The notes beneath the pieces are model-generated. The model did no database searches. It was not told the DNA's origin and saw only the letters and a list, made by a program, of their open reading frames with translations. A program made the position numbers and the translations under genes. From Kutzneria sp. (lineage in GTDB: Bacteria > Actinomycetota > Actinomycetes > Mycobacteriales > Pseudonocardiaceae), in the NCBI GenBank assembly GCA_019239965.1, contig JAFAZC010000190.1, positions 1 through 64,000 of the forward strand: a stretch of 64,000 nucleotides of DNA, written 5' to 3'. Shown one piece after another: positions 10,340 through 30,548 of the stretch (position 1 is the stretch's first letter; each line of letters starts with the position of its first letter).

Positions 10340-11146
10340 TCACTGCGGCTCGCTGGCCTGGTGCCCCAATGCCAGTTCCTCGATCAGCCGGGCGGCCGGC
10401 AACTGAGCGTCCGACATGCGCACGGCGCGTGTACGTTGCAGCTCAAGCACGTCGTAGTAGGCACCCTTCCCGATCTCCTCGGCTCCCACCGAAGCGGCCG
10501 TAGGACTCATCATCTGCGCATCGAGCAACTCACCGCCAGCGGCCAACATTCGCGCCAGGGTGTCGAGTACGGCCACCTTGCCCGCATGTGACTGGACAAA
10601 AAACGCCGACTCCCAGCTGAAGATGCCGCCCACCTGCACGCCCATGCTTCCACCGACGAGGTTTTCGTTCTCCCAGACTTCAATGCTGTGGGCGTAACCT
10701 CGTCGATGCAGCTCCAAGAACGCCTCCGCCATACGGTTCGAAAGCCACGACTCGGCTCCACGCTCTGGACCGCACTTCTTCACGACGCTGTCGAAGCACC
10801 GGTCGACAGTGGTCGTCCAGCCTTTCTGGCGGATGACTCTGCGAAGTGTCTGGCCGGCCTTGGCACTGTGTCGGCTGATCACGGCCCTCGGATCGCGCGA
10901 CCACCACGTCAGGGAGAAGTCCGGGTTTCCAGGCGACATGCTCCGGATGGTTCCATCTCGCAAGGATTCACCGAAGCGGTCCTCGAAGAGGTCATCGAGC
11001 TCTTCCTGAATCGGAGGATATGGATAAAGTCCGTTCATGTAGGCTGAGATGAGTGTGTCGGGGTTCAGGTCCGCACCAACGGCCACCGGTCCAACTCCCG
11101 GTGAGTTTCTCCAGTCAACACTGTCCCAAATGCTGCCCTCGTTCAT
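10340..11146 (-). CDS. leucyl/phenylalanyl-tRNA--protein transferase-like (Aat family)
   Basis: A 268-aa member of the Aat/GNAT-fold family, which moves Leu, Phe or Met from aminoacyl-tRNA to an acceptor amine. Seen here: WWSRDPRAVI, the GYAHSIEVWENENLVGGSMGV core, FSWESAFF in place of the usual F-GESMF, and AQMMSPTAASVGA in place of the usual (I/L)D-Q...HL-SLGA. The last two replacements suggest altered substrate use. The sequence is clearly less GC-rich than its surroundings. It lies 70 bp downstream of the MFS exporter on the same strand, so both probably form one operon at the left edge of the peptide cluster. Aat is normally a protein-degradation (N-degron) enzyme; in a biosynthetic cluster it may aminoacylate the natural product or its precursor. 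That role is inference. Confidence 0.82.
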   Translation of the reverse strand: MNEGSIWDSVDWRNSPGVGPVAVGADLNPDTLISAYMNGLYPYPPIQEELDDLFEDRFGESLRDGTIRSMSPGNPDFSLTWWSRDPRAVISRHSAKAGQTLRRVIRQKGWTTTVDRCFDSVVKKCGPERGAESWLSNRMAEAFLELHRRGYAHSIEVWENENLVGGSMGVQVGGIFSWESAFFVQSHAGKVAVLDTLARMLAAGGELLDAQMMSPTAASVGAEEIGKGAYYDVLELQRTRAVRMSDAQLPAARLIEELALGHQASEPQ

Positions 11147-11216: not shown

Positions 11217-12440
11217 TCAGCTCACGTCCGCTAGGGTCTGTCTGGACATGCTCCGCACATCGCGGAGAAGCATTACCGCAATCGTTGAGAGCGTGATGAA
11301 CAGGCTGATCACCACAAGACTTGGCTGCAATCCGAAATGCTCTTCAAGTGGGCCCGCGATAACTCCACCAAGCGGCGCGAAAGCGATTGAACAGAACATG
11401 TCGTAACTCGCTACCCGCGACATCTTCGCCTGGGATACCTCCTGGCGCAGCGCGGCCAACCAGCATACCCCGTAGATTTCATCACCAACCCCACCCGCCA
11501 AAGACGCCGTCGCCGCTAACGGAAGTGGAAGACCGAAGATCAAAGCGCACGGCAGCAGCACGAACAGAAGGCTTGCCGCGTTTCCGAACAGCAGAAGCTT
11601 CCTCGGCCTGAGTCTGGTCATCGCCAAGCCGCCGATCATGAAGCCGACAGTCTGAAATGTCAGCACCAGCCCCCATCCGGCTGCGCCCCAGGGGCTGGAT
11701 CTGGCGTATATAGGTCCCAGTACGCCCATGAAACCCACGACCATGGCATTAACCAGAGACATCTGAAGAACCATGGCCCAGAGCCAGCGAAAGCGTATGA
11801 ACTCTTGCCATCCTGTACGCATGTTCAGCCAGAGGTTCTCCCTCTTGTCAACATTGGCAACCGCTGGAAGCAGCAGTCCCAGGCGCAGGATAGCGGCGGG
11901 GACGAAAACGATGCCACAGCAGATAAGCCCCAGCGCTGGGCCGCAGAGGGCCACTATGCCACCGCCGATCCCGGCGCCAATGATTTGCCCAGAATTCTGA
12001 ATGAGGCGCAGTGTGGCCAAAGACTTTTCCGGGTTCTCTGCATCAATGATCTGCAGATTCGCTGCCTCGGCCGCCGGATAGTAGAAGGCGGTGGCAGTGC
12101 CAGCCGCAAAGGACAGGGCGCACATGACGACAATGTTGTGCCAGCCTTGCTGTAGCGCCAGCCCGAAACACATGAACGAGACGGCACTGACCAGATTGGA
12201 CGCGACCATCATGGACTTGCGTGAAATGCGGTCGCCGATCGCGCCAGCGTAGAGGACAAACACGATGACAGGAGCTGTCCGCGCAGCAGTGACAAGCCCC
12301 ACGTCACTTGCCGAGCCGCCGGCCTGAAGTACGGCGAAAGCGAAGGCGATAGGTCCGGCGTTGATACCTATCGTTGAAATCGCCGTACTGAATGCCTGGA
12401 TGCGAAAATTCCAACTGGCCCAGGCTGGGAAACTCGCCAC
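11217..12440 (-). CDS. MFS transporter, probable peptide-product exporter
   Basis: A 407-aa major facilitator protein with about twelve hydrophobic segments and the MFS loop GDRISRKSMMVASN after the second segment. It resembles the enterobactin/antibiotic exporter (EntS-like) group. The start is GTG 12440, preceded by the purine-rich GGGAAGGGCAGGCAAGG leader. GC content is lower than in the NRPS genes. It is the first gene of a leftward pair with the Aat-type transferase and reads away from the biosynthetic run, sharing the 575-bp intergenic region. The likely job is export of the peptide product and so self-protection; the substrate is inferred from position only. Confidence 0.85.
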   Translation of the reverse strand: MASFPAWASWNFRIQAFSTAISTIGINAGPIAFAFAVLQAGGSASDVGLVTAARTAPVIVFVLYAGAIGDRISRKSMMVASNLVSAVSFMCFGLALQQGWHNIVVMCALSFAAGTATAFYYPAAEAANLQIIDAENPEKSLATLRLIQNSGQIIGAGIGGGIVALCGPALGLICCGIVFVPAAILRLGLLLPAVANVDKRENLWLNMRTGWQEFIRFRWLWAMVLQMSLVNAMVVGFMGVLGPIYARSSPWGAAGWGLVLTFQTVGFMIGGLAMTRLRPRKLLLFGNAASLLFVLLPCALIFGLPLPLAATASLAGGVGDEIYGVCWLAALRQEVSQAKMSRVASYDMFCSIAFAPLGGVIAGPLEEHFGLQPSLVVISLFITLSTIAVMLLRDVRSMSRQTLADVS

Positions 12441-13014: not shown

Positions 13015-14478
13015 GTGATGTGCATGATTCGCGGTGAGATTTATGACGCCTGTTCCACTTTTACACAGCCGTTGTCAACTGAGTGCATTGACAGATCGTT
13101 GATCGCCGGGGGCAGTGCCGAACGAGCCGTGTCAACGGAGGCCGTCTACAACTACGTGCGTGAGCGCGAGTCCAACGCTCGCACCTATGCCGACAAGTTG
13201 GACCGCGTCATCGAGCGTGGCTCGCTGGCGCGGGTGTGGGATAGCGAGGGGCGGGAGTATCTGGACTGCCTCTCGGTCGCGGGCACGTTGGCCTTGGGGC
13301 ACAACCATCCCATCGTCATCGAAGCGGTCCTGGACTTCATCGCTTCCGGCCAGGTGCAGCAGGCCCTCGATCTGACGACGCCGGCCAAGTACCGGTTCTT
13401 GCGCCAGTTGTTCGACGTCTTCCCCGCGGACTTCGGCGCCACCGCGAAGGTTCAGTTCTGCGGGCCCTCCGGCGCGGACGCGACGGAGGCGGCGGTCAAA
13501 CTGTTCAAGACCGCTACCGGCAGGCGCACGGTGATCGCCTTCCATGGCGCCTATCACGGCATGACGGCAGGATCCTTGAGCCTGACCGGCAACCTGGTCG
13601 CCAAGCGGTCCGTGGCCTCGCTCATGCCGGACACCCATTTCCTGCCCTATCCCGACAGCTATCGCTGCCCGTTCGGCCTTGGCGGGGAAGCCGGGGTGCG
13701 GGCCAATCTGCACTATCTGGAGCGCGTTCTCACTGATCCGGACAGCGGCATCACGAAGCCCGCGGCTGTCTTCGTCGAAGCCGTGCAGGGCGAAGGCGGG
13801 GTGATCCCGGCACCGCCTTCCTGGCTGCGCGGCCTGCGGGAGCTGACCGCCCGGCTGGACATCCCACTCGTGCTCGACGAGATCCAGACCGGGTTCGGTC
13901 GTACCGGCACCATGTTCGCGTTCGAGGAAGCGGGTATCCGACCGGACGCCGTGCTGATCTCGAAGGCTGTGGGGGGTGGTTTTCCCCTCGCGCTCGTTGC
14001 CTACGACGCCCGCTACGACGCCTGGTCACCCGGTGCGCACGCGGGCACGTTCCGTGGCAACCAGATCGCCATGGTCGCGGGTGCCACCACGATCTCGGTG
14101 ATCCGGGACGAGAACCTGGTGCACGCCGCGGTGGCCAAGGGAAAGCTGATCGGCGCCGGACTCGGTGAACTCGCCGATCGTCATCCCGAGATCGGCGATG
14201 TGCGTGGCCGTGGCCTGATGTGGGGCGTCGAGATAGTGGATCCGCGGCTGCCTGCCGACGCGTTGGGCGCCCATCCCGCCGATGGCGAGCGCGCCGCCGA
14301 AATCGGGCGCCGCTGTCTGGAACTGGGGCTGATCGTCGAACGCGGCGGGCGCCACGGCGCCGTGCTGCGTCTGTTGCCTCCGTTGGTCATCACCGAGGGT
14401 GAAGTTGAGGAGATGATTTCGAAACTCGGGATGGCGCTGGTCGCAAAGCCGCAGGGCAGCGGCAGAAGTGGACGGTGA
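13015..14478 (+). CDS. dat: L-2,4-diaminobutyrate:2-oxoglutarate aminotransferase
   Basis: A class III PLP aminotransferase (487 aa as drawn) that makes L-2,4-diaminobutyrate from aspartate semialdehyde and glutamate. It shows the Dat/EctB-type sequence throughout: RESNARTY, LDCLSVAGTLALGHNHP, QFCGPSGADATEAA, PYPDSYRCPFG, VQGEGGVIPAP and the PLP lysine in ISKAVGGG (about K317). It is the first gene of the rightward biosynthetic run. The start is unsure: the first 38 residues from GTG 13015 (ATG 13018 and 13024 are also possible) have no family counterpart, and GTG 13129 would begin just before homology. It supplies Dab, either as an NRPS monomer or for modification by the carbamoyltransferase homologue downstream. 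Confidence 0.9.
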   Translation: MMCMIRGEIYDACSTFTQPLSTECIDRSLIAGGSAERAVSTEAVYNYVRERESNARTYADKLDRVIERGSLARVWDSEGREYLDCLSVAGTLALGHNHPIVIEAVLDFIASGQVQQALDLTTPAKYRFLRQLFDVFPADFGATAKVQFCGPSGADATEAAVKLFKTATGRRTVIAFHGAYHGMTAGSLSLTGNLVAKRSVASLMPDTHFLPYPDSYRCPFGLGGEAGVRANLHYLERVLTDPDSGITKPAAVFVEAVQGEGGVIPAPPSWLRGLRELTARLDIPLVLDEIQTGFGRTGTMFAFEEAGIRPDAVLISKAVGGGFPLALVAYDARYDAWSPGAHAGTFRGNQIAMVAGATTISVIRDENLVHAAVAKGKLIGAGLGELADRHPEIGDVRGRGLMWGVEIVDPRLPADALGAHPADGERAAEIGRRCLELGLIVERGGRHGAVLRLLPPLVITEGEVEEMISKLGMALVAKPQGSGRSGR

Positions 14479-14607: not shown

Positions 14608-15630
14608 ATGTTGAGTGCCGATTACGAGCACGACTTCGACACCGAGTGCGCGACCGCCGGTGAGGCGCCGAGGATCGCCGCCGCGGCGGCGCTGCTGGAG
14701 ATGGGAGACCGGCTCGGCCTCGTTTCCTTGATCGCGACCGGTGACGAGGTGACCGTCGAGTCGCTGGCCAAAGCCGCGGACCTGCCGGAGTCCGGTGTGG
14801 CCGGTTACTGCGAGGCCTTGGAGTCCGCCGCCATCATCGTTCCGGTCGGGACCTCAGGCACGGTGTTCCGGGCGGCGGACGACTTCGCGACAATCCGCCA
14901 CCAGGCGGGCTTCGTGTCCTGGACGATGAACGCCAACCGGCCGTTCATCGAGAACGCCCGCGCATTTCTCACAGACCCGTCTCGAGGGACTGGCATCGAC
15001 ATGCGCGACGGCCGCGAGGTCGCGGTCAGCTCCGAGTGGATGGGCTCCGTGGCGTTCTACCCGGCCGCGCTGTCCACGATCCTGAGGTCGAAACCGGAGA
15101 TCGTCGTCGACCTCGGTGCCGGGACGTGCCGCCTGCTGATCGAGATTCTGCGACGGCTGCCACAGAGCCGCGCTGTGGGCCTCGACCTGGACGGGCCCTC
15201 CTGCGAGGCCGCACGGCAAGCGGCGGAGGCCGCGGTTCTGGCCGACCGGCTGCAGGTGATACACCGGTCGATCCAGTCCATTGCGGACGACCCGTCACCA
15301 TTGGAGGGTGCGGATGTCATCCACGGTGGGTTCGTATTCCACGACATGATGCCTGAGGAGGAGCAGACCGCGGACCGCGTGCTGGCCAACTGCCGTGAGG
15401 CGTTGCGGGACGGCGGGATCATGGCCATCACCGAGGCCGTCCCGTACCTGCGCAACGAGCGAGAGCGGCGTTTCAGTGCCGCGGTGACGTACTACCACCG
15501 GCAGTTCATGAAGCGCAGGCTGCTCAGCGAAGACGAATGGAAGCGCAAGCTCCGCTCGGCCGGGTTCACCCGTGTCGAATCGATCGAGCTGCCTTTCCCC
15601 ACAGGCCGCCTGTTCGTCGCAGAGCGTTGA
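14608..15630 (+). CDS. SAM-dependent C-methyltransferase, MppJ/MrsA-like
   Basis: A 340-aa methyltransferase with an N-terminal winged-helix dimerisation domain (residues 1-100) and a Rossmann SAM domain with motif I VDLGAGTCRLL near residue 166. Two histidines, H245 in FVFHDM and H297 in TYYHRQF, have nearly the same position and spacing as the iron-ligand histidines reported for MppJ, the phenylpyruvate beta-C-methyltransferase. That makes an alpha-keto-acid C-methyltransferase the leading idea over an ordinary O-methyltransferase. The branched-chain aminotransferase at 29168 would then convert the methylated keto acid to the amino acid. ATG 14608 follows a GGGGGGT site. The substrate is unknown. 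Confidence 0.75.
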   Translation: MLSADYEHDFDTECATAGEAPRIAAAAALLEMGDRLGLVSLIATGDEVTVESLAKAADLPESGVAGYCEALESAAIIVPVGTSGTVFRAADDFATIRHQAGFVSWTMNANRPFIENARAFLTDPSRGTGIDMRDGREVAVSSEWMGSVAFYPAALSTILRSKPEIVVDLGAGTCRLLIEILRRLPQSRAVGLDLDGPSCEAARQAAEAAVLADRLQVIHRSIQSIADDPSPLEGADVIHGGFVFHDMMPEEEQTADRVLANCREALRDGGIMAITEAVPYLRNERERRFSAAVTYYHRQFMKRRLLSEDEWKRKLRSAGFTRVESIELPFPTGRLFVAER

Positions 15631-15700: not shown

Positions 15701-16966
15701 ATGACCGCCTCGAAGGACACCGCGGTGCGCTGCCCGTTCGCGGCAGGTGGGGACGTCGACCTCGTCGACCCCGATCTGTACGGCAACGGCGACCCGCACA
15801 CGGTCTGGGCAGAGCACCGGCGGACCGCCCCGGTGCGGTGGCAGCCGGTCGGCGCCGACCGGGGTTTCTGGTCGGTGACCAGATACGCGGACATCAGTCG
15901 TGTGTTGCGCGAGCACGAGACGTTCAGCTCGCAGCAGGGGACATTGCTGAACCTGCTCGGTGCGGGCGACCCCGCGAGCGGCAGCCAGCTGGCGGTCACC
16001 GATCCACCGCGGCACAGCGAGATGCGCGAGCCGCTGCAGCGCGCGCTGTCGATTCGGGCGATCGACCACTACCAGGCCGACATTCGCGCGCTGGTGGCCG
16101 GGCTGGTGGCGCCGCTGGCCGACGGCGGTCCGTTCGACCTCGCCGCGGCGATGGCCAGCCTCCCGATGGCCGTCACCGGGACGATGATGGCCATTCCCCG
16201 CGAGGACTGGCCGCTGCTGACCAGGGCGGCTACCGCCGCGCTCGCCGCCGACGATCCGGCCTACCAGGTCCGAGGTGGTCCGGAGGCGACGCTGCGCCGG
16301 TCGCACCGGGAGATCTTCGCCTACTTCCAGGACGTCGTCACGAGCCGCCGCAAGCACCCCGGTGACGACCTGATCGGCACGCTGCTTGGCATTCGGATGG
16401 ACGGGCGGGGCCTGAGCGACGGCCAGATCACGGCCAACTGCTACAGCCTGCTCATCGGAGCGATCGTGACGACCCCGCAGGTTGTCTCATCGGCCGTCGC
16501 ACGGCTGGCGGGCACCGGCGATCTGGACCGGTGGGCGGCCGACCCCAGCCTGATGAACACCGCCGTCGAGGAAGCGGTCCGGTGGGCGTCGCCCACCAAC
16601 CACTTCATGCGCTATGCGTTGCGCGACACCGAACTCGCCGACGTGGCGATCCGCGCGGGTGACGCGGTGGTCGTGTGGCTGGGCTCGGCAAACCGGGACG
16701 AGCGGGTCTTCCCCGATCCGTTCCACTTCGACATCGCACGCAAGCCGAACAAGCACATCGCGTTCGGTGTCGGTCCGCACTACTGCATCGGTCACACGAT
16801 CGCCCGGGTGACCCTGCGGATCGCGTTCGCCGAGCTGCTCGGCCGGTTCACCGGGTTGGAGCTGGCGGCGGAACCGGTGCGGTTGCGCTCGAACATCATC
16901 GCCGGCATCCGTGAGCTTCGGATCACGGGACGCCGGAGACCGGTACCGGCCGCGATCACAGGTTGA
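15701..16966 (+). CDS. cytochrome P450 with altered I-helix
   Basis: A 421-aa soluble bacterial P450. The haem-ligand loop is FGVGPHYCIGHTIAR with Cys about residue 362. The ExxR helix is EEAVRW, and the HF-type FHFDIARKPN segment is present. The I-helix reads LLIGAIVTT, so the acidic residue normally preceding the conserved Thr pair (AG-D/E-TT) is Val256. Such changes occur in P450s acting on carrier-bound or unusual substrates and can alter proton delivery. ATG 15701 is chosen; the longer frame has no homology. The gene ends 13 bp before the AurF-like gene and is in the biosynthetic operon. It probably oxidises an amino-acid precursor or the peptide. Confidence 0.87.
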   Translation: MTASKDTAVRCPFAAGGDVDLVDPDLYGNGDPHTVWAEHRRTAPVRWQPVGADRGFWSVTRYADISRVLREHETFSSQQGTLLNLLGAGDPASGSQLAVTDPPRHSEMREPLQRALSIRAIDHYQADIRALVAGLVAPLADGGPFDLAAAMASLPMAVTGTMMAIPREDWPLLTRAATAALAADDPAYQVRGGPEATLRRSHREIFAYFQDVVTSRRKHPGDDLIGTLLGIRMDGRGLSDGQITANCYSLLIGAIVTTPQVVSSAVARLAGTGDLDRWAADPSLMNTAVEEAVRWASPTNHFMRYALRDTELADVAIRAGDAVVVWLGSANRDERVFPDPFHFDIARKPNKHIAFGVGPHYCIGHTIARVTLRIAFAELLGRFTGLELAAEPVRLRSNIIAGIRELRITGRRRPVPAAITG

Positions 16967-16979: not shown

Positions 16980-17894
16980 ATGCGCGCGTTCAATTCCTGG
17001 TACGAGGACGCTGGTGTCCGCGTTGGACCGCGCCGGAAACCAGGGGACGACCTCGGGAAGAAGTTCTTCCCGGACCATCTCATCCCGCACCTGGGACATC
17101 CGTTGGTGCAGGCCCTGCCCGATGAGCTGCGTCGGTACCTGTCCGCCCAGTACCTGTACCAGTGGCTGAACTTCACCGCGGAGTTCGAGATCGCCGTTGT
17201 CGTGCGTGCGACACAGCAGATCGCCGACGGCCGCAGCGGTGTGTCGCTGGAACGGGAACTGCGGCGGGACGCGATGCGGATCTGCGTTGACGAGCAGTAC
17301 CACGCCCTCCACAGCGTGGATGTCGTCGACCAGGTCGAGAACAGCGCGGGCATTCCATCGTTGCCATACGACTTCGCGCCGTTCCTCGCGCATCTGGACG
17401 GCATCGGGGAGAGCTACCCGGGGCACCGCAAGCTGGTCCAGTTGCTGCAGGTCGTCGTGTTCGAAACGCTGATCACCTCGCTCATCGAGGATGTTCCGAA
17501 GGACACCGAGGTGATGACCGTCGTGCGGGACACGGTGCGCGACCACGCCGAGGACGAGCGCCGCCACCACGCCTACTTCGCGCTGTTCTTCAAGGAGTTG
17601 TGGGCTCAGCTGGACCGGTCGGAGCGAGAGACGGTGTCCCGGCTGCTCCCAGACGTGATCATCAGGTCCCTACAACCCGCTACCCGCTCCGCCCGCGCCG
17701 CACTCGGCGTCGCCGGGTTCTCCCCGGCGCGGACCGACCAGATCATCGCCGAGTCCTTCGACCGCCAGTCGGTCATGGCCGGCATCACCATCGCGTCCGC
17801 CAAGACGGTGGCGCTACTGGAGCGTTGCGGGGTGCTCGACGTCCCTGGTGCGCGAGAAAGGTTCCAGAATGCAGGATTCACCACTGTCCGCTGA
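16980..17894 (+). CDS. AurF-like diiron N-oxygenase
   Basis: A 304-aa helical protein resembling the p-aminobenzoate N-oxygenase (AurF/CmlI) family, which uses a non-haem diiron centre to oxidise amines to hydroxylamine or nitro groups. Candidate iron ligands are seen in NFTAEFEIAVV, in CVDEQYHALHSVD, in VVVFETLI, and in the DHAEDERRHHAYF helix. ATG 16980 follows the AAAGGGGGG site at 16969-16977. The 3' end overlaps the carbamoyltransferase-like gene by 26 bp. In this setting the amine of diaminobutyrate or a derivative is a plausible target, but C-hydroxylation is also known for relatives, so the reaction is inferred. Confidence 0.78.
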   Translation: MRAFNSWYEDAGVRVGPRRKPGDDLGKKFFPDHLIPHLGHPLVQALPDELRRYLSAQYLYQWLNFTAEFEIAVVVRATQQIADGRSGVSLERELRRDAMRICVDEQYHALHSVDVVDQVENSAGIPSLPYDFAPFLAHLDGIGESYPGHRKLVQLLQVVVFETLITSLIEDVPKDTEVMTVVRDTVRDHAEDERRHHAYFALFFKELWAQLDRSERETVSRLLPDVIIRSLQPATRSARAALGVAGFSPARTDQIIAESFDRQSVMAGITIASAKTVALLERCGVLDVPGARERFQNAGFTTVR

Positions 17895-18840
17895 CGCCAA
17901 AGCCGGACGACCCTTGCTGTCGCTGTCCGCTCTCACCCCGGACGAGCTGGAGTTCGTTGCCGGCCTGGCGTGGGAGTTCGGCCGTGACCCCGGTCGGTTC
18001 GCGGGGCTGCTGGCGGGCGCACGGGTCGGGTTGCTATTCACCGCTCCCTCCACACGCACGCGCACGTCGTTCTGGAGCGCCGCGACAACGCTCGGCTGTC
18101 ACACGATCCACTTCGGACCGGGCGACATCCAGGTGAGTACGGGAGAGACCTGGTTCGACACCGGTTCGGTGTTCGCCACCTACCTGGACGCGGTCGTCGC
18201 CCGCACGAACGGGCCGCAGGCGGAGCTGGACGAGATGGCGACCGCGTTGCCCGCCACGGTAAACGCGCTGACCAAAGAGGAGCACCCGACCCAGTCAATC
18301 GCCGACCTGTGCGCCCTGCGCGACCACTTCGGCGCCGACACGCGGCCGCGGCTGGCCTACCTCGGGGTACTGAACAACACGGCGCGGTCACTCGCGCAGC
18401 TCGTCTCACTGCGGGACGGGATGCGGCTCGACGTCTACAGCCCCGAGGGCCACGGTCTGAGCGATGCCGAGGTCGCCACGCTGAACGAGGCGGCCAAGCG
18501 GGAGGCGGTGCGTCAGTTCGACCGCGTTCCGCAGACGCCCGATCCCGTCGACGCCGTCTACACCTGCCGGTGGCAGTCGATGGGGTCCGCGCCCGAGGGT
18601 GCGGGCGAGGGATGGGAGAAGGCGTTCCGGCCGTTCGCGGTCACGCGCCACACCCTGCGGCTCTTCGGTGGCGGATCGGAGGCCGTGTTCCTGCATGACC
18701 TGCCCGCGAGCCGTGACAAGGAGGCCACCTCCGAGGTACTCGACGGCGACCGTTCGCTGGTGGCCAGGCAGGTCTTCCACAAGACGTCGGCGGCCGCCGC
18801 CGCGCTGATGTGGGCCCTGCGCGGGCGTGACATCGGCTGA
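17869..18840 (+). CDS. ornithine/aspartate carbamoyltransferase-like protein
   Basis: A 323-aa member of the transcarbamylase family. The carbamoyl-phosphate site is intact (PSTRTRTSF near residue 60; HPTQS near residue 139). The amino-acid site differs: the OTC motif HCLP is HDLP at about 276-279 and the SMG loop is QSMGSA, so the acceptor is probably not ornithine. ATG 17869 has AAAGG eight bases upstream. By analogy with VioL/CmnL, which carbamoylate a diamino acid in viomycin and capreomycin biosynthesis, it may carbamoylate the diaminobutyrate made by Dat to give a ureido amino acid. An arginine-synthesis role is unlikely in this location. Confidence 0.83.
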   Translation: MQDSPLSADAKAGRPLLSLSALTPDELEFVAGLAWEFGRDPGRFAGLLAGARVGLLFTAPSTRTRTSFWSAATTLGCHTIHFGPGDIQVSTGETWFDTGSVFATYLDAVVARTNGPQAELDEMATALPATVNALTKEEHPTQSIADLCALRDHFGADTRPRLAYLGVLNNTARSLAQLVSLRDGMRLDVYSPEGHGLSDAEVATLNEAAKREAVRQFDRVPQTPDPVDAVYTCRWQSMGSAPEGAGEGWEKAFRPFAVTRHTLRLFGGGSEAVFLHDLPASRDKEATSEVLDGDRSLVARQVFHKTSAAAAALMWALRGRDIG

Positions 18841-18886: not shown

Positions 18887-19099
18887 TTGCTCGACGAGAC
18901 CCCGTCCACCGCCGAGTTCGCGGTGGTGGTGAACGACGAGGACCAGTGGTCGATCTGGCCCGCGCACCGCACGGTGCCCGCGGGTTGGACGGCGGAGGGA
19001 ACCGTCGGTTCCCGCGGCGAGTGCATTGAACACATCGACGCTTCCTGGACCGACATCCGGTCGCGCAGCGTCCGCGACGCAGGCGGTGTGGACAGGTGA
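18887..19099 (+). CDS. MbtH-like NRPS accessory protein
   Basis: A 70-aa MbtH-family protein, a chaperone-like partner of adenylation domains. The diagnostic tryptophans and spacing are visible in QWSIWP, PAGW and IDASWTDIRS. The start is TTG 18887, 7 nt after GAAAGGAG (18872-18879); the longer frame upstream has no homology. The stop overlaps the start of the first NRPS gene (GTGA at 19096), so the two are translationally coupled. It probably serves that A domain and perhaps others, including the split one. Confidence 0.93.
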   Translation: MLDETPSTAEFAVVVNDEDQWSIWPAHRTVPAGWTAEGTVGSRGECIEHIDASWTDIRSRSVRDAGGVDR

Positions 19100-21405
19100 C
19101 CATCCAGTCCTCCGCCACCGACGCCGGGATCGACCCGGCCGGAGCCGGCGCTGTCGAGACGCTCGCAGCGCTTGTCGTGGCGCTGCACCGGCGGTCGCTT
19201 GACGAGCGCGTGGTGCTCGACTTGCACCTCGGTGACCGCTCGGGGATCGAGATCGTCGACGTGCCGAACACCGGCACGTTCGCCGGGCTGTGCGGCCGAC
19301 TGCGTGCGCATGGCGGCGACTCGGTGTCCGGTGATACCCCCGAGCCCGCGGTCCGTGTCGTCCTGCCCGGCACCACGCCCGCCCCGTCCACCTGTCCGGT
19401 CGCCGAGCTGCTCCCCAATGGTGACGGCATTCGTGTCCACGCCGGCGATCCGGCGGAGGGCTGGGACGCCGCCGAGGCCGACCTGCTCGCCGACCTCGTC
19501 GGCCGGGTGCTTGCCGCGGGTCGGGAGAATCCGCGGGTCCCGGTCACGCGGCTACGGCTCACCCGGCCCGGGGAACCCGCGTTCTGGGGAACCCCGGACG
19601 CCCCGGTGCCAGTCGAACGGCTGGAGACGCTGATCGCCAGGCACGCCGCACAGCGCCCGGACAGCCCGGCGGTGAGCTGCGGTGATGTCCGGATCAGCTA
19701 CCGGGAGCTTGACGAGCGCGCGACCGCGGGCGCCGAGGCGCTGCGCCGGGAGGGCGTCGGCCCGGACGAGGTGGTCGGACTGTTCGCCGAGCGTTCGGCG
19801 GAGCGGATCGTCGCCCTGCTCGCGATCCTCAAGGCCGGTGCGGCCTACCTCGCACTGAACCCGGATGACCCGACCTCGCGCCTGGCTGTTCAGCTGCGCG
19901 ACGCACGGGTGCGGCTCGTGGCCGCCGAGCCCGCGTTCACCGACGCCGTTCCCGGAGGCGTCGCGACGCTCCCGCTCGACGCGCTCGCCCCGCCCGCGGG
20001 CACCGCGACCGGTTCGCCGACACCCGTGGCCGCGGGCCCGGACCACCTGGCCTACGTCTGCTACACGTCCGGTTCGACGGGCGTGCCCAAGGGTGTCGGC
20101 GTGCCGCACCGTGCCGTCGCACGCCTGGTGCGCCAGCCGAACTGGGTGGATCCGCGCCCGGACGACGTGTTCCTCCAGCTGTCCCCGCTCTCGTTCGACG
20201 CGGCGACCGTCGAGATCTTCTCCGCACTGGTGAACGGTGGGCACCTGGTCGTGCTGCCGCCCGGCCGGGTGGAGCCGGACCGCCTGCGGCAGGCCGTGCG
20301 GGAGGCGGGCGTCACCGTGCTGCTGCTGCCGACCGGCCTGCTGCACTACACGATCGAGGCCAAGCCCGACACGTTCGCCGGCGTGCGGCACGTGCTGACC
20401 GGCGGCGACGTGGCGTCGGCGTCACTTGTGCGGCAGCTGTTCGCGAGCCACCCCGGCATGCTCTTCACCAACGGCTACGGCCCGACGGAGAACACCTCCT
20501 ACACGACGTGCTGGACGTCGGACGTACCGCCGGTCACGGCGAACGTGCCGATCGGTGACCCCGTCAGCGGCACGTCGGTCGCGGTGCTCGACGAGGACCT
20601 GCACGGGGTCCCGGCGGGTGTGTGCGGGCAGCTGTACGCCGCCGGAGACGGCCTGGCTCGCGGCTACCTCTCCAGTGCGGGCGCCACGGCCGACCGGTTC
20701 ATGCCGCACCCAGACGTGCCGGGGGCTCGCATGTACCGCACCGGCGACCTCGTCCGGCGGGCCGCCGACGGCACCGTCGTATTCGTCGGCCGCGCCGACG
20801 ACCAGGTCAAGGTCAACGGCTATCGGGTCGAACCGGGGGAGATCGAGGACGTGCTGCTGCGCCAGCCCGAGGTCGCGCAGGCCGCGGTCACGGTGCAGCG
20901 GAACAAGAACGGCGCGGCGTCGCTGATCGCCTACGCCGCGCCGGCATCCGCGGACGCCGACCCGATGCTCGGCGCACGGCTGCGCGACCGCCTGCGTGCA
21001 GAGCTGCCCGCCTACATGATCCCGACGGCCGTGCTGGTCCGCCCCGGGCTCGCGATCACGCCGAACGGCAAGCTGGACCGGCAAGCACTGCCCGCCGCAC
21101 ACAGGTACCCCCGCAACGTGTGGAACGACTACGTCCCACCGACGAATCCGACCGAGATCGAGTTGGCGGAGACGTGGGGTGCGCTGCTCGGCGTGGAACC
21201 GGTCGGTGTCGAGGACGACTTCTTCGAGCTCGGTGGCCACTCGCTGCTCGCTGCGGAGCTGATGGCCAAGGTGAGCCAGGACATGGGGGTGGAGGTGTCC
21301 GCCCGGACGCTCTACCTCCAGCCCACGGTTGCCGAGATGGCCGCCGCGATCGAGAACGCCGTCTCGGCGAACGGCGACGGCCGGACGGAGGAGGTGTCCG
21401 GGTGA
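19096..21405 (+). CDS. NRPS: A-PCP protein
   Basis: A 769-aa non-ribosomal peptide synthetase. Residues 1-175 form an N-terminal region with no catalytic motif, probably a degenerate condensation-domain tail or docking part. The adenylation domain follows (about 180-660) with A3 YTSGSTGVPKG near 323, A4 SFDAATVE, A5 NGYGPTEN near 460, A7 YRTGDL and A10 PNGKLDR near 656. The carrier domain has its phosphopantetheine Ser at about 716 (ELGGHSLLAA). The pocket residues read by alignment to GrsA are D-A-V-L-L-G-G-S-Y-K, suggesting a hydrophobic amino acid but not a known monomer. With no C domain it may load the first residue. GTG 19096 overlaps mbtH. Confidence 0.92.
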   Translation: MTIQSSATDAGIDPAGAGAVETLAALVVALHRRSLDERVVLDLHLGDRSGIEIVDVPNTGTFAGLCGRLRAHGGDSVSGDTPEPAVRVVLPGTTPAPSTCPVAELLPNGDGIRVHAGDPAEGWDAAEADLLADLVGRVLAAGRENPRVPVTRLRLTRPGEPAFWGTPDAPVPVERLETLIARHAAQRPDSPAVSCGDVRISYRELDERATAGAEALRREGVGPDEVVGLFAERSAERIVALLAILKAGAAYLALNPDDPTSRLAVQLRDARVRLVAAEPAFTDAVPGGVATLPLDALAPPAGTATGSPTPVAAGPDHLAYVCYTSGSTGVPKGVGVPHRAVARLVRQPNWVDPRPDDVFLQLSPLSFDAATVEIFSALVNGGHLVVLPPGRVEPDRLRQAVREAGVTVLLLPTGLLHYTIEAKPDTFAGVRHVLTGGDVASASLVRQLFASHPGMLFTNGYGPTENTSYTTCWTSDVPPVTANVPIGDPVSGTSVAVLDEDLHGVPAGVCGQLYAAGDGLARGYLSSAGATADRFMPHPDVPGARMYRTGDLVRRAADGTVVFVGRADDQVKVNGYRVEPGEIEDVLLRQPEVAQAAVTVQRNKNGAASLIAYAAPASADADPMLGARLRDRLRAELPAYMIPTAVLVRPGLAITPNGKLDRQALPAAHRYPRNVWNDYVPPTNPTEIELAETWGALLGVEPVGVEDDFFELGGHSLLAAELMAKVSQDMGVEVSARTLYLQPTVAEMAAAIENAVSANGDGRTEEVSG

Positions 21406-22130
21406 GGGTCACCTCGCGGCGCGGGCGCTGGTTCTTGCGGGAGCCGCGCACCGACGTGTCGGCCAGAGTGTTCTGCCTGCCCTACTCCGGGTGTGGCGCG
21501 ACGATGTACCGGCAGTGGCCTGAGTCGCGCGATGGCGTGGAGTTCTGCGCTGTCCAGCTCCCCGGCCGGGAGAACCGGATGCGCGAGCCCGCGTTCGACA
21601 GCTATGAGCAGCTTGCCGTCGAGCTCGCCGAGGCGCTGCGGCCTCACCTCGACGTCCCGTACGCGCTGTTTGGCCACTGCAGCTCGGCGCTGGCCGCGTT
21701 CGAGACCGCGGCGCGGCTGTGCGAGGCCGGTCCCGCGCCCGCCCGGCTGTACGTGTCTTCGGAGGTGGCCCCGCAGGACGGTCCGTACGGCTACTTCCTC
21801 GGGCTCGACGACGAGGGACTGTCGCGTGAGCTGGCCGACCTGCTCGTCGGCATGGGGGCGGAGCCGCATCCCGGGCTGATCGAGCTCACGCTCGGCGTGC
21901 TGCGCCACGACGTCGACGTCAACAAGCGTTATGTGAAGCCGGATCCGCCCCGGCTGTCGTGTCCGATCACGTCGATCGGGTGGAAGGACGACAGCGGGGT
22001 CGAGCCGCGGCTGATGGACGGCTGGTCGCGCTGCGGTGAGACCGAGACGGTGCTGCTCGACGGCGGGCACTACGAGTTCGTCGGGGCGCCGGAGGAATTG
22101 ATGGACGTGCTGGTTCGGGGAGTCCGATGA
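21402..22130 (+). CDS. type II thioesterase with cysteine in the nucleophile elbow
   Basis: A 242-aa alpha/beta-hydrolase of the discrete NRPS thioesterase family (FCLPYSG, VQLPGREN, then GGHYEF with the catalytic His). The nucleophile elbow that normally reads GHSMG is GHCSS here, putting Cys93 in the catalytic position. Most type II thioesterases use Ser and release misprimed carriers. Cys-nucleophile thioesterases are known among product-releasing domains, such as the beta-lactone-forming ObiF TE of obafluorin. It lies in the NRPS operon with 4-bp overlaps on both sides. A second, canonical type II thioesterase is present at 28398, so this one may have a different task. Confidence 0.87.
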   Translation: MRVTSRRGRWFLREPRTDVSARVFCLPYSGCGATMYRQWPESRDGVEFCAVQLPGRENRMREPAFDSYEQLAVELAEALRPHLDVPYALFGHCSSALAAFETAARLCEAGPAPARLYVSSEVAPQDGPYGYFLGLDDEGLSRELADLLVGMGAEPHPGLIELTLGVLRHDVDVNKRYVKPDPPRLSCPITSIGWKDDSGVEPRLMDGWSRCGETETVLLDGGHYEFVGAPEELMDVLVRGVR

Positions 22131-25100
22131 CGGGTGCGTCCGGCAGCCGTCTGTCCGCGGCCAAGCAGCGCTTGCTCGCCGAGCGCCGGGGGAGTGGCGT
22201 GCGTGCGGTCCCCCGGCGGGATCCGGGCATGCTGGTGGAGGCCACGCACCAGCAGCGGGCGCTGTGGTTCCTTGACCGCTACCTGGGTGCCGGCGCGAAC
22301 TCGGCCTACAACCTGCACCACGCTCTGCGGCTGCGCGGTGACCTCGACGCCGGTGTCGTGCAGGACTGTCTGCGGCAGGTCGTGGCCCGGCACGACGCGC
22401 TGCGCACCACGTTCACCGTGGACTCGGACGGCCGGCTACTGCTGCGTGTCGCGCCGCCGCCTCGTCCCGGCACGTTCACGCTGCCGGTCCGTCCGGCCGG
22501 GCCCGACCTGGCCGAGACGGTGCTGGCCGAGGCGTCGATCCCGTTCGATCTCGCCTCGGGCCCGCTCTTCCGGCCCGTGCTGTTCCAGGTAGGCGAGCGC
22601 GACCACGTGCTGCTGCTCACCGCGCACCATACGGTGTTCGATGGCGCGTCGGTCGAGCTGGTCGAGGCCGAGCTGGCCGATCTCCTCACGGGGCGCGAGC
22701 CCGCGGTGCCGCCCATCGGCTTCGCGGACTGGGCGGCCTACACCCATGGTGAGGAACACCGCGCCGCCGTCGCGCGGCGGCTCGAGGCCGCCGTCGCGCG
22801 ACTGTCCGGCGCGCCGGAGCTGCTCGACTTGCCGACCGACCGGCCGCGTGGCGTGGAGCTGTCCACTGGGGGCGACACGGTGTCGGTCCGTCTCGACGCG
22901 GCCGTCGCCGCGCGGTTGCGGGAGTTGTGCCGGACCGAGGGCGTCACACTGTTCACCGCCGTTCTGGCCGTCTACCAACTGCTGCTGTCCCGGTGGTCCG
23001 GCCAGGACGACATTTGCGTCGGCATGCCGGTGGCCGGGCGTGGGCGGGCCGAGCTGGCCGGACTTGTCGGGTGCTTCGTCTCGACCGGGGTCGCACGGAC
23101 CAGGGTGGACGGGCGGCTGACGTTCCGCTCGCTGCTGGCCGAGGCCGCCGAGGCCGTGAACTCCGCGCGGGCGGACGCCGACGTCCCGTTCGACCAAGTG
23201 GTCGCGCGGCTGCGTCCGGAGCGGGCGACCGGCTACAACCCTGTGTTCCAGGTGTTCCTGGATGTGGTCACCGATCCCGCCTCCACCGCGGACAGGTGGG
23301 GCGGCGTTGTCGCCGAGCCGCTGCCCCTGCCAGTCCGCGAGGCGAAGTTCGACCTCAGCCTCACCGTGGTCGAGCGTGCGGACGGAATGACCGCCGAGCT
23401 GACCCACCGCACGGACCTGTTCGACACCGCCACCGCCGCGCGCCTGCTCGACCAGTTCGCGGTGCTGCTGGACCAGCTCACCGCACGTCCGAACGTCCCG
23501 ATGGCCGACGTCTCGGCACTGTCCGACGCCGAGCTCGCCCGGTGGCGTGCCGACAGCAGCGGAGATGCGGTCGATGTACTTGATGTCACGCTGCCACAGG
23601 CCCTCGCCGCGGCGACCGCGACGTGGCCGGAGGCGGTCGCCGTCCGCGCCGGGAACGATTCGCTGACCTATACCGAGCTGGACCGGCGCGCCATCGCGTT
23701 AGCCCATCGCCTGGTGGCAACCGGGGCCAAGCCCGGCGCCATCGTGGCGGTCGCCGTGCCGCGGTCACTCGACCTCGCCGTCGCACTCGGCGCGGTGCTG
23801 CGCACGGGTGCGGCGTACCTTCCGCTCGACCTCGACCATCCGGCAGACCGGCTGCGCTTCGTGCTCGGCGACGCCCGCCCGGCGTGCGTCCTGACCACGA
23901 CCGCGTCGGCGCAATCGTTCGCCGGGGCGGACGTCCCGGTCCTGGAGATCGACGGAGCTCTGGACGAGCGGACCGATCAGGAGACGCTGCCCGAGCCTCA
24001 CGTGCTCGACGCCGCGTACGTCATCTACACGTCCGGCTCGACCGGCCGCCCCAAGGGGGTGGCGGTGCCACACCGGGGCATCGTCAACCGTCTGCGGTGG
24101 ATGCAGCATGCATACCGGCTCGTGCCGGGAGAACGGGTGCTGCAGAAGACGCCGACAACGTTCGACGTGTCGGCGTGGGAGCTGTTCTGGCCGCTGATCG
24201 AGGGCGCCACACTCGTGTCCGCCCCGCCCGGCGCACACCGCGACCCCCTGCAGCTGGCGCAACTCGTGGCCCGCGAGCGGATCACGACGATGCACTTCGT
24301 CCCGTCGATGCTGTGGGCGTTCCTGGAAGAGCCGGAGGCCGCACGCACCCGCGAATGCCTGCGCCGCGTGGTATGCAGCGGCGAGGAGCTGCCCGCGGCC
24401 GCGGTGGCTCGCTTCGTCGAGGTGCTGCCAGGTGTCGAGCTGCACAACCTGTACGGCCCGACCGAGGCGTCGGTCGACGTCACCGCGTGGGAGTGCGGGC
24501 CGGACGACACCGCCGCGGCGCCGCCGATCGGGCGTCCGGTGTGGAACACCGGCGCGCGGGTGCTCGATGAACGCCTCGGCCCGGTGCCGGTCGGCGTGGC
24601 CGGGGAGCTCTACCTGTCCGGCGTCCAGCTCGCGTTGGGCTACCACCGGCGGCCGGGCCTGACCGCCGAGCGGTTCCTGCCCGACCCGTGGGGGCCGCCC
24701 GGCAGTCGCATGTACCGCACCGGCGACCTCGCGCGGCGGCGCCCCGACGGGGCGCTCGTCTTCCTTGGTCGCGCCGACCACCAGGTCAAGCTGCACGGCC
24801 AGCGGATCGAACTCGGCGAGATCGAGCAGGTCCTGCGGGAGCACCCGGCGGTCGCCGCCGCGGCGGTCGTGGTCCGCCGCGACCGCCCAGGGGTGGAACA
24901 GCTGGTCGCCTACGTCACCGGCGCCGCTGGCGCGGCCCCGAACGGACCGGACCTGGTCGGACGGATGCGTGCCGTCCTGCCCGCGGTGATGGTGCCGGAG
25001 GAGGTGGTGGTGCTCGCCGCGTTTCCCCTCACGGCCAGCGGCAAGCTGGACCGCAAGGCCCTGCCCGCCCCGGCCGCGACCCTGTCATCGGCCAAGCAGC

Positions 25101-26722
25101 GCCTGCTCGCCGGCCGCCGCGGTCGCGCGGTGGCGCGTGACGCCCGCACCGAGGTCCTGTGCGACCTGGTCGCCCGGCTGCTCGGCCTTGACACGGTCGG
25201 ACCGGACGACGACTTCTTCCGGCTCGGCGGCGACAGCATCGGTTCCATTCGGCTCGTCAGCCTGGCGCGCCGAGCCGGCCTCGGACTCTCCGAGCGGACT
25301 GTGTTCGAGCACCGCACCCCGCGTGCGCTGGCCGCGGCGGCGACCCAGCTCACCCCGGGGACAGGACCGGACTCCGACGACGGCACCGGGGTGGTCCCGC
25401 TCACCCCCATCATGCGCTGGTGGCGGGAGGGCGGTGGCCCGGCCGCCGGGTTCCACCAGTCGGTGCTGCTGGACCTGCCGCCGGGGGCGGGGGAGCCCGC
25501 CCTGCTCGCGTTGCTCGAGGCGCTGGCCGCTCGCCACGATGTGCTTCGGGCCAGACTGGCCGGCGAGGAGCTGATCGTGCCGCCAGTGTCCGAAGTGGAC
25601 GTGGCGCCCTGGTTGACCAAGGCCGACGAGCCGTCGATCGCGCCCGGACACCCCGACCCGGCCCACGGCATGGTCCACGCCGTGTGGTCCGAACCGCTCG
25701 GGCAGCTCCTGCTGGCCGTGCACCACCTCGCCGTGGACGGCGTGTCGTGGCGGGTGTTACTCGACGACATCGCGGCCGGATGGGACGACGCCATTGCCGG
25801 ACGTCCGGTGCGGCTGCCTGGCGTGCCGACCTCGTTCCGGATCTGGGCAAACCGGCTCGCGCGGGAGACACCGACACGGCGTGCCGAGCTGGAGGTGTGG
25901 CAGCGCGTGCTGTCCGCACCCGAACCGGCCATCGGTCGTCCACTGGATCCGGCGACCGACACCGCGGGCAACGCGCGCGAGTTGGTGCACGAGTTCGAAG
26001 CCGGCGCACTGCTCAGCGTTGTACCGGACCGTTTCCGGGCCGGCGCGGACCACGTTCTGTTGTGTGCGCTCGCTTTGGCCGTCCGAGCCTGGCGCGATCG
26101 TCGACGTACGCCGTCGCAGGTCCTCCGGGTGATGGTGGAGGGCCACGGGCGGTACGACTTCGCCGAGTTCGACCTGTCCCGTACGGTCGGCTGGTTCACG
26201 GTGCGATATCCGGTGGCGCTCGACCTGGCCACCGCGGACAACACGGCGTCGGCGTTGAAGACGGTCAAGGAGCAGGTGCGGGCCCTACCGGACGGCGGTC
26301 TCGGCTATGGCCTGCTGCGCCACCTCACCGACCGCACGTTGGCCGCGCTCGACGAGCCACAGGTCGCGTTCAACTACCTGGGCCGGTTCCGGCCCGGTGG
26401 CACGGGCAGCCTCGTCGCGCTGGACGGTGGCATCCCGGACGCCACCCCGCTCGCGGCGGCGCTCGACGTGACCGCGATCGCCTGGGACCAACCGGAAGGT
26501 GTCCGGCTGCGGACGACGTTCACCTGGGCTCCGGACGTCCTGGACGAGTCGGACGTGCGCGTGCTCAGTGAGCTGTGGGTGCAGGCGCTGGCCACGGTGG
26601 CCGCGCTGGCCGACGACCCGGACACCGGCGGGGTGATGGCATCCGACGTCTTCGTCGAGATGGACCAGGACGAGCTGGACGACCTGCGACGGGAACTCGA
26701 GTCGGACCGGGGGCTGCGATGA
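22127..26722 (+). CDS. NRPS: C-A(Ser)-PCP-E
   Basis: A 1531-aa synthetase module. The condensation domain has HHTVFDG (about residue 167). The adenylation domain has A3 YTSGSTGRPKG near 634, A4 TFDVSAWE, A5 NLYGPTEA near 775 and A10 ASGKLDR. The carrier motif is RLGGDSIGS (Ser about 1037), the DS form usual before an epimerase. The C-terminal domain is an epimerisation domain with HHLAVDG (about 1199), EGHGRY (about 1338), RTVGWFT and NYLGRF. The pocket code by GrsA alignment is D-V-W-H-V-S-L-V-D-K, close to the known serine code DVWHLSLIDK, so the module should add Ser and convert it to D-Ser. It carries an unusual repeated linker AAKQRLLAERRG / AKQRLLAGRRG at its N-terminus and before the carrier. 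ATG 22127 overlaps the upstream stop. Confidence 0.94.
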   Translation: MTGASGSRLSAAKQRLLAERRGSGVRAVPRRDPGMLVEATHQQRALWFLDRYLGAGANSAYNLHHALRLRGDLDAGVVQDCLRQVVARHDALRTTFTVDSDGRLLLRVAPPPRPGTFTLPVRPAGPDLAETVLAEASIPFDLASGPLFRPVLFQVGERDHVLLLTAHHTVFDGASVELVEAELADLLTGREPAVPPIGFADWAAYTHGEEHRAAVARRLEAAVARLSGAPELLDLPTDRPRGVELSTGGDTVSVRLDAAVAARLRELCRTEGVTLFTAVLAVYQLLLSRWSGQDDICVGMPVAGRGRAELAGLVGCFVSTGVARTRVDGRLTFRSLLAEAAEAVNSARADADVPFDQVVARLRPERATGYNPVFQVFLDVVTDPASTADRWGGVVAEPLPLPVREAKFDLSLTVVERADGMTAELTHRTDLFDTATAARLLDQFAVLLDQLTARPNVPMADVSALSDAELARWRADSSGDAVDVLDVTLPQALAAATATWPEAVAVRAGNDSLTYTELDRRAIALAHRLVATGAKPGAIVAVAVPRSLDLAVALGAVLRTGAAYLPLDLDHPADRLRFVLGDARPACVLTTTASAQSFAGADVPVLEIDGALDERTDQETLPEPHVLDAAYVIYTSGSTGRPKGVAVPHRGIVNRLRWMQHAYRLVPGERVLQKTPTTFDVSAWELFWPLIEGATLVSAPPGAHRDPLQLAQLVARERITTMHFVPSMLWAFLEEPEAARTRECLRRVVCSGEELPAAAVARFVEVLPGVELHNLYGPTEASVDVTAWECGPDDTAAAPPIGRPVWNTGARVLDERLGPVPVGVAGELYLSGVQLALGYHRRPGLTAERFLPDPWGPPGSRMYRTGDLARRRPDGALVFLGRADHQVKLHGQRIELGEIEQVLREHPAVAAAAVVVRRDRPGVEQLVAYVTGAAGAAPNGPDLVGRMRAVLPAVMVPEEVVVLAAFPLTASGKLDRKALPAPAATLSSAKQRLLAGRRGRAVARDARTEVLCDLVARLLGLDTVGPDDDFFRLGGDSIGSIRLVSLARRAGLGLSERTVFEHRTPRALAAAATQLTPGTGPDSDDGTGVVPLTPIMRWWREGGGPAAGFHQSVLLDLPPGAGEPALLALLEALAARHDVLRARLAGEELIVPPVSEVDVAPWLTKADEPSIAPGHPDPAHGMVHAVWSEPLGQLLLAVHHLAVDGVSWRVLLDDIAAGWDDAIAGRPVRLPGVPTSFRIWANRLARETPTRRAELEVWQRVLSAPEPAIGRPLDPATDTAGNARELVHEFEAGALLSVVPDRFRAGADHVLLCALALAVRAWRDRRRTPSQVLRVMVEGHGRYDFAEFDLSRTVGWFTVRYPVALDLATADNTASALKTVKEQVRALPDGGLGYGLLRHLTDRTLAALDEPQVAFNYLGRFRPGGTGSLVALDGGIPDATPLAAALDVTAIAWDQPEGVRLRTTFTWAPDVLDESDVRVLSELWVQALATVAALADDPDTGGVMASDVFVEMDQDELDDLRRELESDRGLR

Positions 26723-28401: not shown

Positions 28402-29171
28402 TGAACACCGACCGGCGCTGGTTCCCCGGCTCCCCGGGGGAGCCCTCCGAGAGGACGCAGCTGTTCTGCCTGCCGCACGGAGGCGGCGGCGCGTCGGCCT
28501 ATCGCGAATGGCGGGACAAGCTCGCCGGGATCGCCGACGTCGTGCCGGTCCAGCCGCCGGGACGGGAGGGCCGCGCCGCGGAGCCCGCCGAGTGGTCCAT
28601 GACCGCCTTGGCGGAGCAGCTGTTCGAGCCGCTACGTCGGCGCGCCGGGGACCGACCGTACGCGATCTTCGGGCACAGCATGGGCGCGCTGCTCGGGTAC
28701 GAGGTCACGGTGGCACTGGCCGCGGTGGGACGGCCTCCGGAGCTGCTGGTGGCCTCCGGTGCACCGGCCCCGCAGCTGCCCGTCGGTACCGAACGGCCGG
28801 TGCACCGGATGTCCGAGGACGAGCTCGTCGGCCACCTGCGCGAGCTGGCCGGGACCCCGGACTCGGTACTGAGGAACGCCGACCTGCTCAGCCTGCTCGT
28901 ACCGACCGTTCGTGCCGACTTCGCCGCCTGCGAGACCTACGTCCACCCGCCGCACCCGGTGCTCGACGTGCCGCTGCTGGTGCTGGGCGGCGAGCAGGAC
29001 ACTGGCGTCCCGCCCGCGACACTCGGCCCGTGGCGGGAGCGGACCGCGGCGGGCTGCGCGGTGCACACGTTTCCCGGCGGCCACTTCTACCACTTCGACC
29101 GGACCGACGAGGTCCTGGCGCTGATCGCCGGTGCGCTCACCGGTGACCCTGTGACGGGAGCGACCCGATGA
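28398..29171 (+). CDS. type II thioesterase (canonical)
   Basis: A 257-aa discrete thioesterase with the standard motifs FCLPHGGG, VQPPGREG, GHSMGA (nucleophile Ser about 94), GGEQDTGVP (Asp region) and GGHFYHF (catalytic His). Family members hydrolyse wrongly acylated phosphopantetheine arms on NRPS carriers. GTG 28398 overlaps the upstream stop (ATG 28401 also possible), and the downstream aminotransferase starts at the stop of this gene, so it is embedded in the translationally coupled run. Confidence 0.92.
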   Translation: MMNTDRRWFPGSPGEPSERTQLFCLPHGGGGASAYREWRDKLAGIADVVPVQPPGREGRAAEPAEWSMTALAEQLFEPLRRRAGDRPYAIFGHSMGALLGYEVTVALAAVGRPPELLVASGAPAPQLPVGTERPVHRMSEDELVGHLRELAGTPDSVLRNADLLSLLVPTVRADFAACETYVHPPHPVLDVPLLVLGGEQDTGVPPATLGPWRERTAAGCAVHTFPGGHFYHFDRTDEVLALIAGALTGDPVTGATR

Positions 29172-30296: not shown

Positions 30297-30548
30297 ATGA
30301 CTGAGACGGGAACCAACAGCGGCGCCGACGTCGGCGAGACTGTGACGCTGATCTGGCGGGAGGTCCTCGCGGTCCCCGTCGACGAGAACTCGGACTTCTT
30401 TGAGTCAGGCGGGCACAGCGTTGCCGTGCTGCAGATTATCAACCGCATCCAGGAGTGCTACGGCACCGAACTGTCGGTGCGCGACGTCTTCGAGAACTCG
30501 GTGCTCGGCGACTTCATCGGCGTCGTGCGGACTCGGGTGAACGGGTGA
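30297..30548 (+). CDS. free-standing peptidyl carrier protein
   Basis: An 83-aa acyl/peptidyl carrier protein with the phosphopantetheine site FFESGGHSVAV. Helix II (SVAVLQIINRIQE) and the rest of the fold are typical. ATG 30297 lies 4 bp after the aminotransferase stop with GAGG just upstream, and the stop overlaps the ATP-grasp start. A discrete carrier beside an ATP-grasp ligase and a half A domain suggests that one building block is tethered or modified on this protein before entry to the line. Confidence 0.93.
   Translation: MTETGTNSGADVGETVTLIWREVLAVPVDENSDFFESGGHSVAVLQIINRIQECYGTELSVRDVFENSVLGDFIGVVRTRVNG

Follow-up and report, generated by a model that had tools for sequence, protein, structure and literature searches.

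The closest described system is that of SgvM, the methyltransferase of the viridogrisein (etamycin) producer Streptomyces griseoviridis (PDB 8ftr, 8fts, 8rpr). According to the structural description in PMC10502145, alpha-ketoleucine is bound in SgvM by a zinc ion that His244 and His296 coordinate, and Ser141, Met144, Phe329 and Thr331 are located around alpha-ketoleucine or on the loop that closes over it. The same source describes SgvM-like C-methyltransferases as now being engineered into asymmetric alkylation catalysts (PMC10502145). MrsA (PDB 8r4z, 8rvc), of the 3-methylarginine pathway, C-methylates the keto acid 2-ketoarginine. MppJ, of the mannopeptimycin pathway (PDB 4kib, 4kic), has a phenylpyruvate pocket and makes beta-methylphenylalanine. 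In the SB-203208 (sbz) cluster, an MppJ-like methyltransferase is accompanied by an IleRS-like enzyme, which transfers isoleucine from tRNA, and by stand-alone adenylation and carrier proteins (PMC6331615).

The DNA analysed here, called the window, is a stretch of 64,000 nucleotides from Kutzneria sp. An earlier note on it had proposed that the gene at 14608–15630 encodes a methyltransferase of the MppJ/MrsA/SgvM type with an MppJ-like histidine pair. A branched-chain aminotransferase (BCAT) in the same region was proposed to complete a beta-methylated, possibly aromatic, amino acid connected with phenylalanyl-tRNA synthetase (PheRS).

The methyltransferase and its active site

The open reading frame at 14608–15630 (forward strand) is intact from ATG to TGA and encodes 340 residues. 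According to phmmer against the PDB, SgvM is the nearest solved protein (E = 1e-124), and MppJ and MrsA (2-ketoarginine methyltransferase) are detected with E-values of 5e-9 and 9e-6, respectively. The whole-length alignment with SgvM (8ftr) gives an identity of about 60%, and the SAM-binding motif DLGAGT (Asp168-Leu169-Gly170-Ala171-Gly172) is common to both proteins. Pfam Methyltransf_2, an O-methyltransferase domain, matches with E = 6e-8. The top NCBIfam match is TIGR04543 (2-ketoarginine methyltransferase) at 51.5 bits, and the curated cut-off of 425 is not reached.

The structure was predicted by AlphaFold2 from 19 sequences (mean pLDDT 85), and the 1000 chains placed highest by Foldseek were superposed on the model with VIA-align 2; rows less than 1 Z apart are regarded as tied. 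In the predicted model, the N-terminal half is helical, resembling a dimerisation-type domain, and the C-terminal half has a Rossmann fold, which fits the best structural matches. The model superposes on six SgvM entries with Z of 38.2–39.3 (r.m.s. difference 2.5–3.1 over 333–336 residues, 58–59% identity), on MrsA with Z of 25.5–25.9 (4.5–4.6 over 325–326 residues, 17% identity) and on the MppJ entries with Z of 23.9–24.9 (5.3–5.7 over 323–326 residues, about 19% identity). MrsA and MppJ have no firm order between them by Z. Among the rows shown, RedM comes next (Z 22.7), and O-methyltransferases and others are lower.

On its sequence and predicted fold, the product is assigned as an alpha-keto acid C-methyltransferase of the SgvM/MrsA/MppJ kind. 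The earlier proposal is borne out to this extent by the identity to SgvM, the metal-site histidines described below and the fold matches. The methyltransferase itself is an ordinary further member of the known SgvM-like class. The emphasis on MppJ did not hold: SgvM is far closer by both phmmer E-value and Z, and MppJ is ruled out as the nearest relative. It is very improbable that the protein, despite this assignment, is a plain O-methyltransferase that has this fold and methylates a hydroxyl group. The fold is common to many O-methyltransferases and the Methyltransf_2 match is of this kind, but the protein is 60% identical over its full length to a proven C-methyltransferase, the metal site is intact, and the O-methyltransferases score under SgvM, MrsA and MppJ in the structural comparison.

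Histidines are present at positions 8, 98, 219, 239, 245 and 297, and His245/His297 is the only pair 52 residues apart. When the protein was shuffled 20,000 times, some histidine pair with this spacing appeared in 7.5% of the shuffles, and in 0.2% the pair started within 3 residues of position 243. Thus the spacing alone is weak evidence, and the weight is carried by the alignments. His245 and His297 align exactly on His244 and His296 of SgvM. His245 pairs with MppJ His243 (chain 4m72 numbering), whereas MppJ His295 is one column off His297 in the profile alignment, owing to a net one-residue gap between the two sites; the spacing is 52 in the window protein, SgvM and MppJ. The pair and its agreement with the MppJ numbers are therefore confirmed, and the alignment suggested as a check came out as expected for the SgvM histidines and pocket and for MppJ His243, and one column off for MppJ His295. 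From these alignments, His245 and His297 are predicted metal ligands. The metal of MppJ is iron and SgvM is reported with zinc, so the window protein may bind either.

The four SgvM residues around alpha-ketoleucine correspond to Ser142, Met145, Phe330 and Thr332 of the window protein, and all four are kept. The protein was then aligned with its counterparts from 18 related loci, which come from named genome records; several of the loci are truncated at a contig end. All 19 rows retain the two histidines, and 17 of them have the same four pocket residues; the exceptions are L027, with changes at 145 and 330, and L029, with Ile145. Because all 18 loci were found with a set of two patterns that includes GFVFHDM, the conservation of His245 is partly due to selection; His297 is in no pattern. 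The identity of the pocket across the group may also reflect common descent and not one substrate. With this caveat, the substrate is likely alpha-ketoleucine, as suggested by the pocket and the adenylation-domain code described below.

A tree built from these 19 rows pairs the window methyltransferase with that of Lentzea jiangxiensis (L013), with support of 100/99. The closest relatives (L013–L016) are 66–69% identical to it, and we know of no measured activity for the window enzyme or for these relatives. Some methyltransferase match is present in 43 of the 60 near genomes (own included), and the only close matches besides its own are those of G028 (62%) and G054 (52%). The window enzyme thereby adds one SgvM-like C-methyltransferase, together with a set of relatives for comparison.

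Partner genes and the proposed route to beta-methylleucine

The BCAT is encoded at 29168–30292 (forward strand) and scores above both cut-offs (NF009897, 409.8 against 307 bits; TIGR01123, 330.7 against 250.05 bits). It is the second copy in the genome; the other copy, at C59, is more typical (450 against 331 bits), and the two are 52% identical. The window copy is the last gene of a chain joined by 4-base overlaps (A-T, thioesterase, C-A-T-E, C-T, thioesterase, BCAT), and it therefore belongs to the NRPS operon. The earlier claim of a BCAT in the same cluster is sustained by this second copy and its overlaps. The distance to the methyltransferase is 13.5 kb, and the BCAT could serve a different residue. 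In six of the 18 related loci (L018, L019, L020, L021, L022 and L024), a BCAT adjoins the methyltransferase; in the other 12, some cut by contig ends, an adjoining BCAT was not seen. L022 is the S. griseoviridis locus, whose BCAT is 57.6% identical to the window BCAT. It differs from the window in that none of the OTC-like, AurF-like and PheRS genes was matched in the 21 kb examined. In the BCAT tree, from which two rows were omitted, the window copy groups with two Actinoalloteichus cluster copies with moderate support (87/84), under the starred level. The other BCAT of the genome entered this tree as a 41-residue fragment, so its position is meaningless.

The stand-alone adenylation-carrier (A-T) protein at 19096–21405 (forward strand; Pfam) opens the same chain. 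It overlaps by 4 bases a type II thioesterase at 21402–22130 (forward), detected by Pfam Thioesterase in the containing open reading frame 20622–22130. The genes that follow, all on the forward strand and assigned by Pfam, encode an NRPS of C-A-T-E order (22127–26722, A code DVWHVSLVD), a C-T protein without an A domain (26719–28401) and a type II thioesterase (28398–29171). By its motif, the second condensation-type domain of the C-A-T-E protein is read as an epimerase, and the A code of this protein is serine-like.

To read the pocket codes, 30 stretches of A domains were aligned with a GrsA stretch that served as a ruler. The code of the A-T protein is DAVLLGGSY, and similar codes are found near related methyltransferases (DAILLGGSF in L016, DAILLGGSY in L023, DAVVMGGSF in L028). 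Codes of this type resemble valine codes with a larger pocket, and are unlike the phenylalanine code. The A-T code looks aliphatic and suits beta-methylleucine, and from its sequence the A-T protein probably loads the product of the methyltransferase and BCAT. Near other related methyltransferases, however, the codes are DAWCWGGAF (L013) and DAYCWGGAF (L025 and L026), so the link between the methyltransferase and an aliphatic code is not general.

A cytochrome P450 (Pfam p450) is encoded at 15701–16966 (forward strand), 70 bases after the methyltransferase. Like parts occur elsewhere. In L016, genes for an A-T protein, 54% identical to the window one, the adjoining methyltransferase, a thioesterase and a P450 lie consecutively, and after them a class I aminotransferase is encoded on the opposite strand. 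L017 has the methyltransferase, thioesterase and P450, and L023 has an A-T protein, a thioesterase and a weak match to a WelO5-like oxygenase near the methyltransferase. By analogy with these loci, the P450 might plausibly oxidise the residue while it is bound to the carrier, yet this is a guess: the window P450 shares only about 35% identity with the L016 and L017 enzymes, and in its I-helix (GAIVTT) the acid residue that usually precedes the TT pair is missing.

We consider it probable that the SAM-dependent, SgvM-like methyltransferase acts on ketoleucine, and that beta-methylleucine is formed via the BCAT and enters an NRPS peptide via the A-T protein; the substrate, the order of the steps, the role of the P450 and the product are what we infer. 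In this mechanism, the metal on His245 and His297 would bind the keto acid and make its enol, and the methyl group of SAM would be passed to C3. The BCAT would then convert the methylated keto acid to beta-methylleucine, as the proposed last step to the amino acid. The A-T protein would load beta-methylleucine, which may then be oxidised by the P450 while carrier-bound. Finally, the NRPS proteins would incorporate this residue into a short, antibiotic-like peptide that also contains a D-serine-like residue.

The same type of enzyme may act on a different keto acid. Two genes of the cluster give reason to consider a ureido or guanidino side chain, as in the case of MrsA on 2-ketoarginine. A class III aminotransferase of the diaminobutyrate-2-oxoglutarate transaminase family (TIGR00709, above cut-off) is encoded at 13015–14478, and a carbamoyltransferase of the OTC fold (Pfam) at 17869–18840, both on the forward strand. 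According to the alignment, the amine site of the latter is altered: HDLP and RWQSMG replace HCLP and VWTSMG of 3gd5. In L029/G054, where the methyltransferase is 51–52% identical to the window one, an argininosuccinate-lyase-like gene and an OTC-like gene (L029 13694–14617) are also present. This OTC-like product is 42.6% identical to the window protein and has the motifs HDLP and RWQ(S/T)MG in common with it. The altered motifs near two SgvM-like methyltransferases suggest, from sequence comparison, an amine other than ornithine. 2-Ketoarginine methyltransferase is also the best NCBIfam model. However, the TIGR04543 score is far under its cut-off and MrsA is only 17% identical, and the pocket has the same four residues as SgvM; L029 differs at one of them. 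A ureido or guanidino substrate is thus unlikely.

An aromatic keto acid (phenylpyruvate or indolepyruvate) would give a beta-methyl aromatic residue mimicking phenylalanine at PheRS; the earlier note had named an aromatic residue as a possibility. MppJ, which forms such a residue, is a fold relative (Z 24–25) with a histidine on His245 and a second one 52 residues further on, and a second PheRS is present in the same region. The SB-203208 cluster likewise joins an MppJ-like methyltransferase with a tRNA-synthetase-like gene (PMC6331615). Against this, the identity over the fold is about 19% to MppJ and 58–59% to SgvM, and Phe330, whose SgvM counterpart sits in the loop that closes over ketoleucine, is conserved with the other three pocket residues. 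The A-T code is aliphatic-looking and ends in GGSY, unlike the phenylalanine code. The aromatic residue is not supported, and we regard an aromatic substrate as improbable. As SgvM is a better model than MppJ, an aliphatic substrate (alpha-ketoleucine to beta-methylleucine) is likelier than an aromatic one.

The second phenylalanyl-tRNA synthetase

A second, divergent PheRS is encoded on the reverse strand: the beta subunit PheT2 at 36521–38938 (TIGR00472, above cut-off) and the alpha subunit PheS2 at 38948–40048 (Pfam and alignment). PheS2 and PheT2 are 35 and 30% identical, respectively, to the typical PheRS of the genome at C66. The pocket of PheS2 is remodelled. The loop G(F/C)Y(V/L)N(V/A)GLDRL is common to the seven aligned proteins (window included), and the E. 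coli sequence is GFAFGMGMERL. In E. coli numbering, Ala294, Phe295 and Gly296 are replaced by Tyr, Val and Asn. In four of the six other genomes with an aligned PheS2, PheT lacks the stretch near residues 40–160. From these sequence features, an inhibitor-resistant form and a form of altered specificity are candidate readings of PheS2/PheT2.

A close PheT2 is found in nine of 390 family genomes (own included; eight others). The eight others are G540, G564 and the six in which its surroundings were examined (G636, G650, G799, G599, G561 and G544). Among these six, only G650 has NRPS, BCAT and thioesterase genes beside PheT2, and the methyltransferase gene is beside it in none. PheS2/PheT2 as a gene pair tied to this type of cluster was therefore not borne out. 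On the PheRS connection drawn by the earlier note the evidence is divided: the pair is a remodelled second copy, but in the six other genomes most of its relatives lie away from clusters of this type.

A leucyl/phenylalanyl-tRNA-protein transferase (Aat) is encoded at the left edge of the cluster (10340–11146, reverse strand; PF03588, E = 1e-44). Aat is a local rarity but not a general one: it occurs in three of the 60 near genomes (own included), yet across the class 180 of 394 genomes have it. None of the 35 others searched in the genus and family has an Aat gene, and the nearest relatives of the window protein, in another family of the class, are 44% identical. Aat is regarded as an acquired gene.

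The SB-203208 cluster indicates by analogy that the combination of methyltransferase and tRNA-synthetase-like gene can be biosynthetic, which is a lead for the window cluster. The two differ in that the synthetase-like gene is of the IleRS kind there and PheRS here, sbzD is described as 40% identical to MppJ, and an NRPS chain of this kind does not figure in the part of PMC6331615 consulted. A wider reading is that the cluster makes a new short peptide with a beta-methylated aliphatic residue that acts on PheRS or uses its product. PheS2/PheT2 would then be an immunity copy or, like SbzA, would take part in tRNA-dependent aminoacyl transfer with Aat. We consider this wider reading unlikely. 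Among the open-access papers searched, none brought together PheRS, self-resistance and a biosynthetic gene cluster. Were PheS2/PheT2 to serve immunity, this would suggest a natural inhibitor of PheRS as the product.

Composition of the cluster

The cluster, which spans about 10.3–40.1 kb, outweighs the enzyme in importance. With the PheRS copy, Aat, the altered carbamoyltransferase and the split adenylation domain described below, its composition looks new; we know of no matching cluster, and a named product for it was not found. An AurF-like diiron N-oxygenase is encoded at 16980–17894 on the forward strand (PF11583, E = 4e-25; AurF 3chh, E = 4e-5), and an MFS exporter at 11217–12440 on the reverse strand (Pfam; TIGR00900, E = 9e-46, under cut-off).

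A neighbouring ribonucleotide reductase was considered as a second immunity gene and rejected. Its small subunit is 89–90% identical in five of six genus mates, so it is chromosomal. In the three genus mates examined, no cluster genes are beside it except weak family matches. The genome (G000) has a size of 4.7 Mb at 94% completeness against 10–12 Mb for its genus mates, and is reduced or partly binned.

Downstream of the BCAT, an ATP-grasp ligase-like protein is encoded at 30455–31843 on the forward strand (weak Pfam/NCBIfam matches; NF002563, E = 2e-31), with the start probably downstream of 30455. It is followed on the same strand by an adenylation domain that is divided between two genes (31840–36487), with the break between motifs A5 and A6. 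The N-terminal part (31840–32781; A1–A5, 313 residues, code DARNAGVDI) covers 1–328 of the 384 positions of Pfam AMP-binding, and the remainder (A6–A10) lies in a C-[A6–A10]-T-TE protein at 33479–36487 (Pfam). Every join is a 4-base overlap, and therefore the split is not a simple frameshift. Together with the altered carbamoyltransferase, it is a testable oddity of the cluster. The protein between the halves (32778–33482, forward strand, 234 residues) has no match in Pfam or NCBIfam, and its single-sequence model has a mean pLDDT of 41. By eye, its HGGYLAG and FPSCFVCG stretches resemble hotdog-fold proteins.
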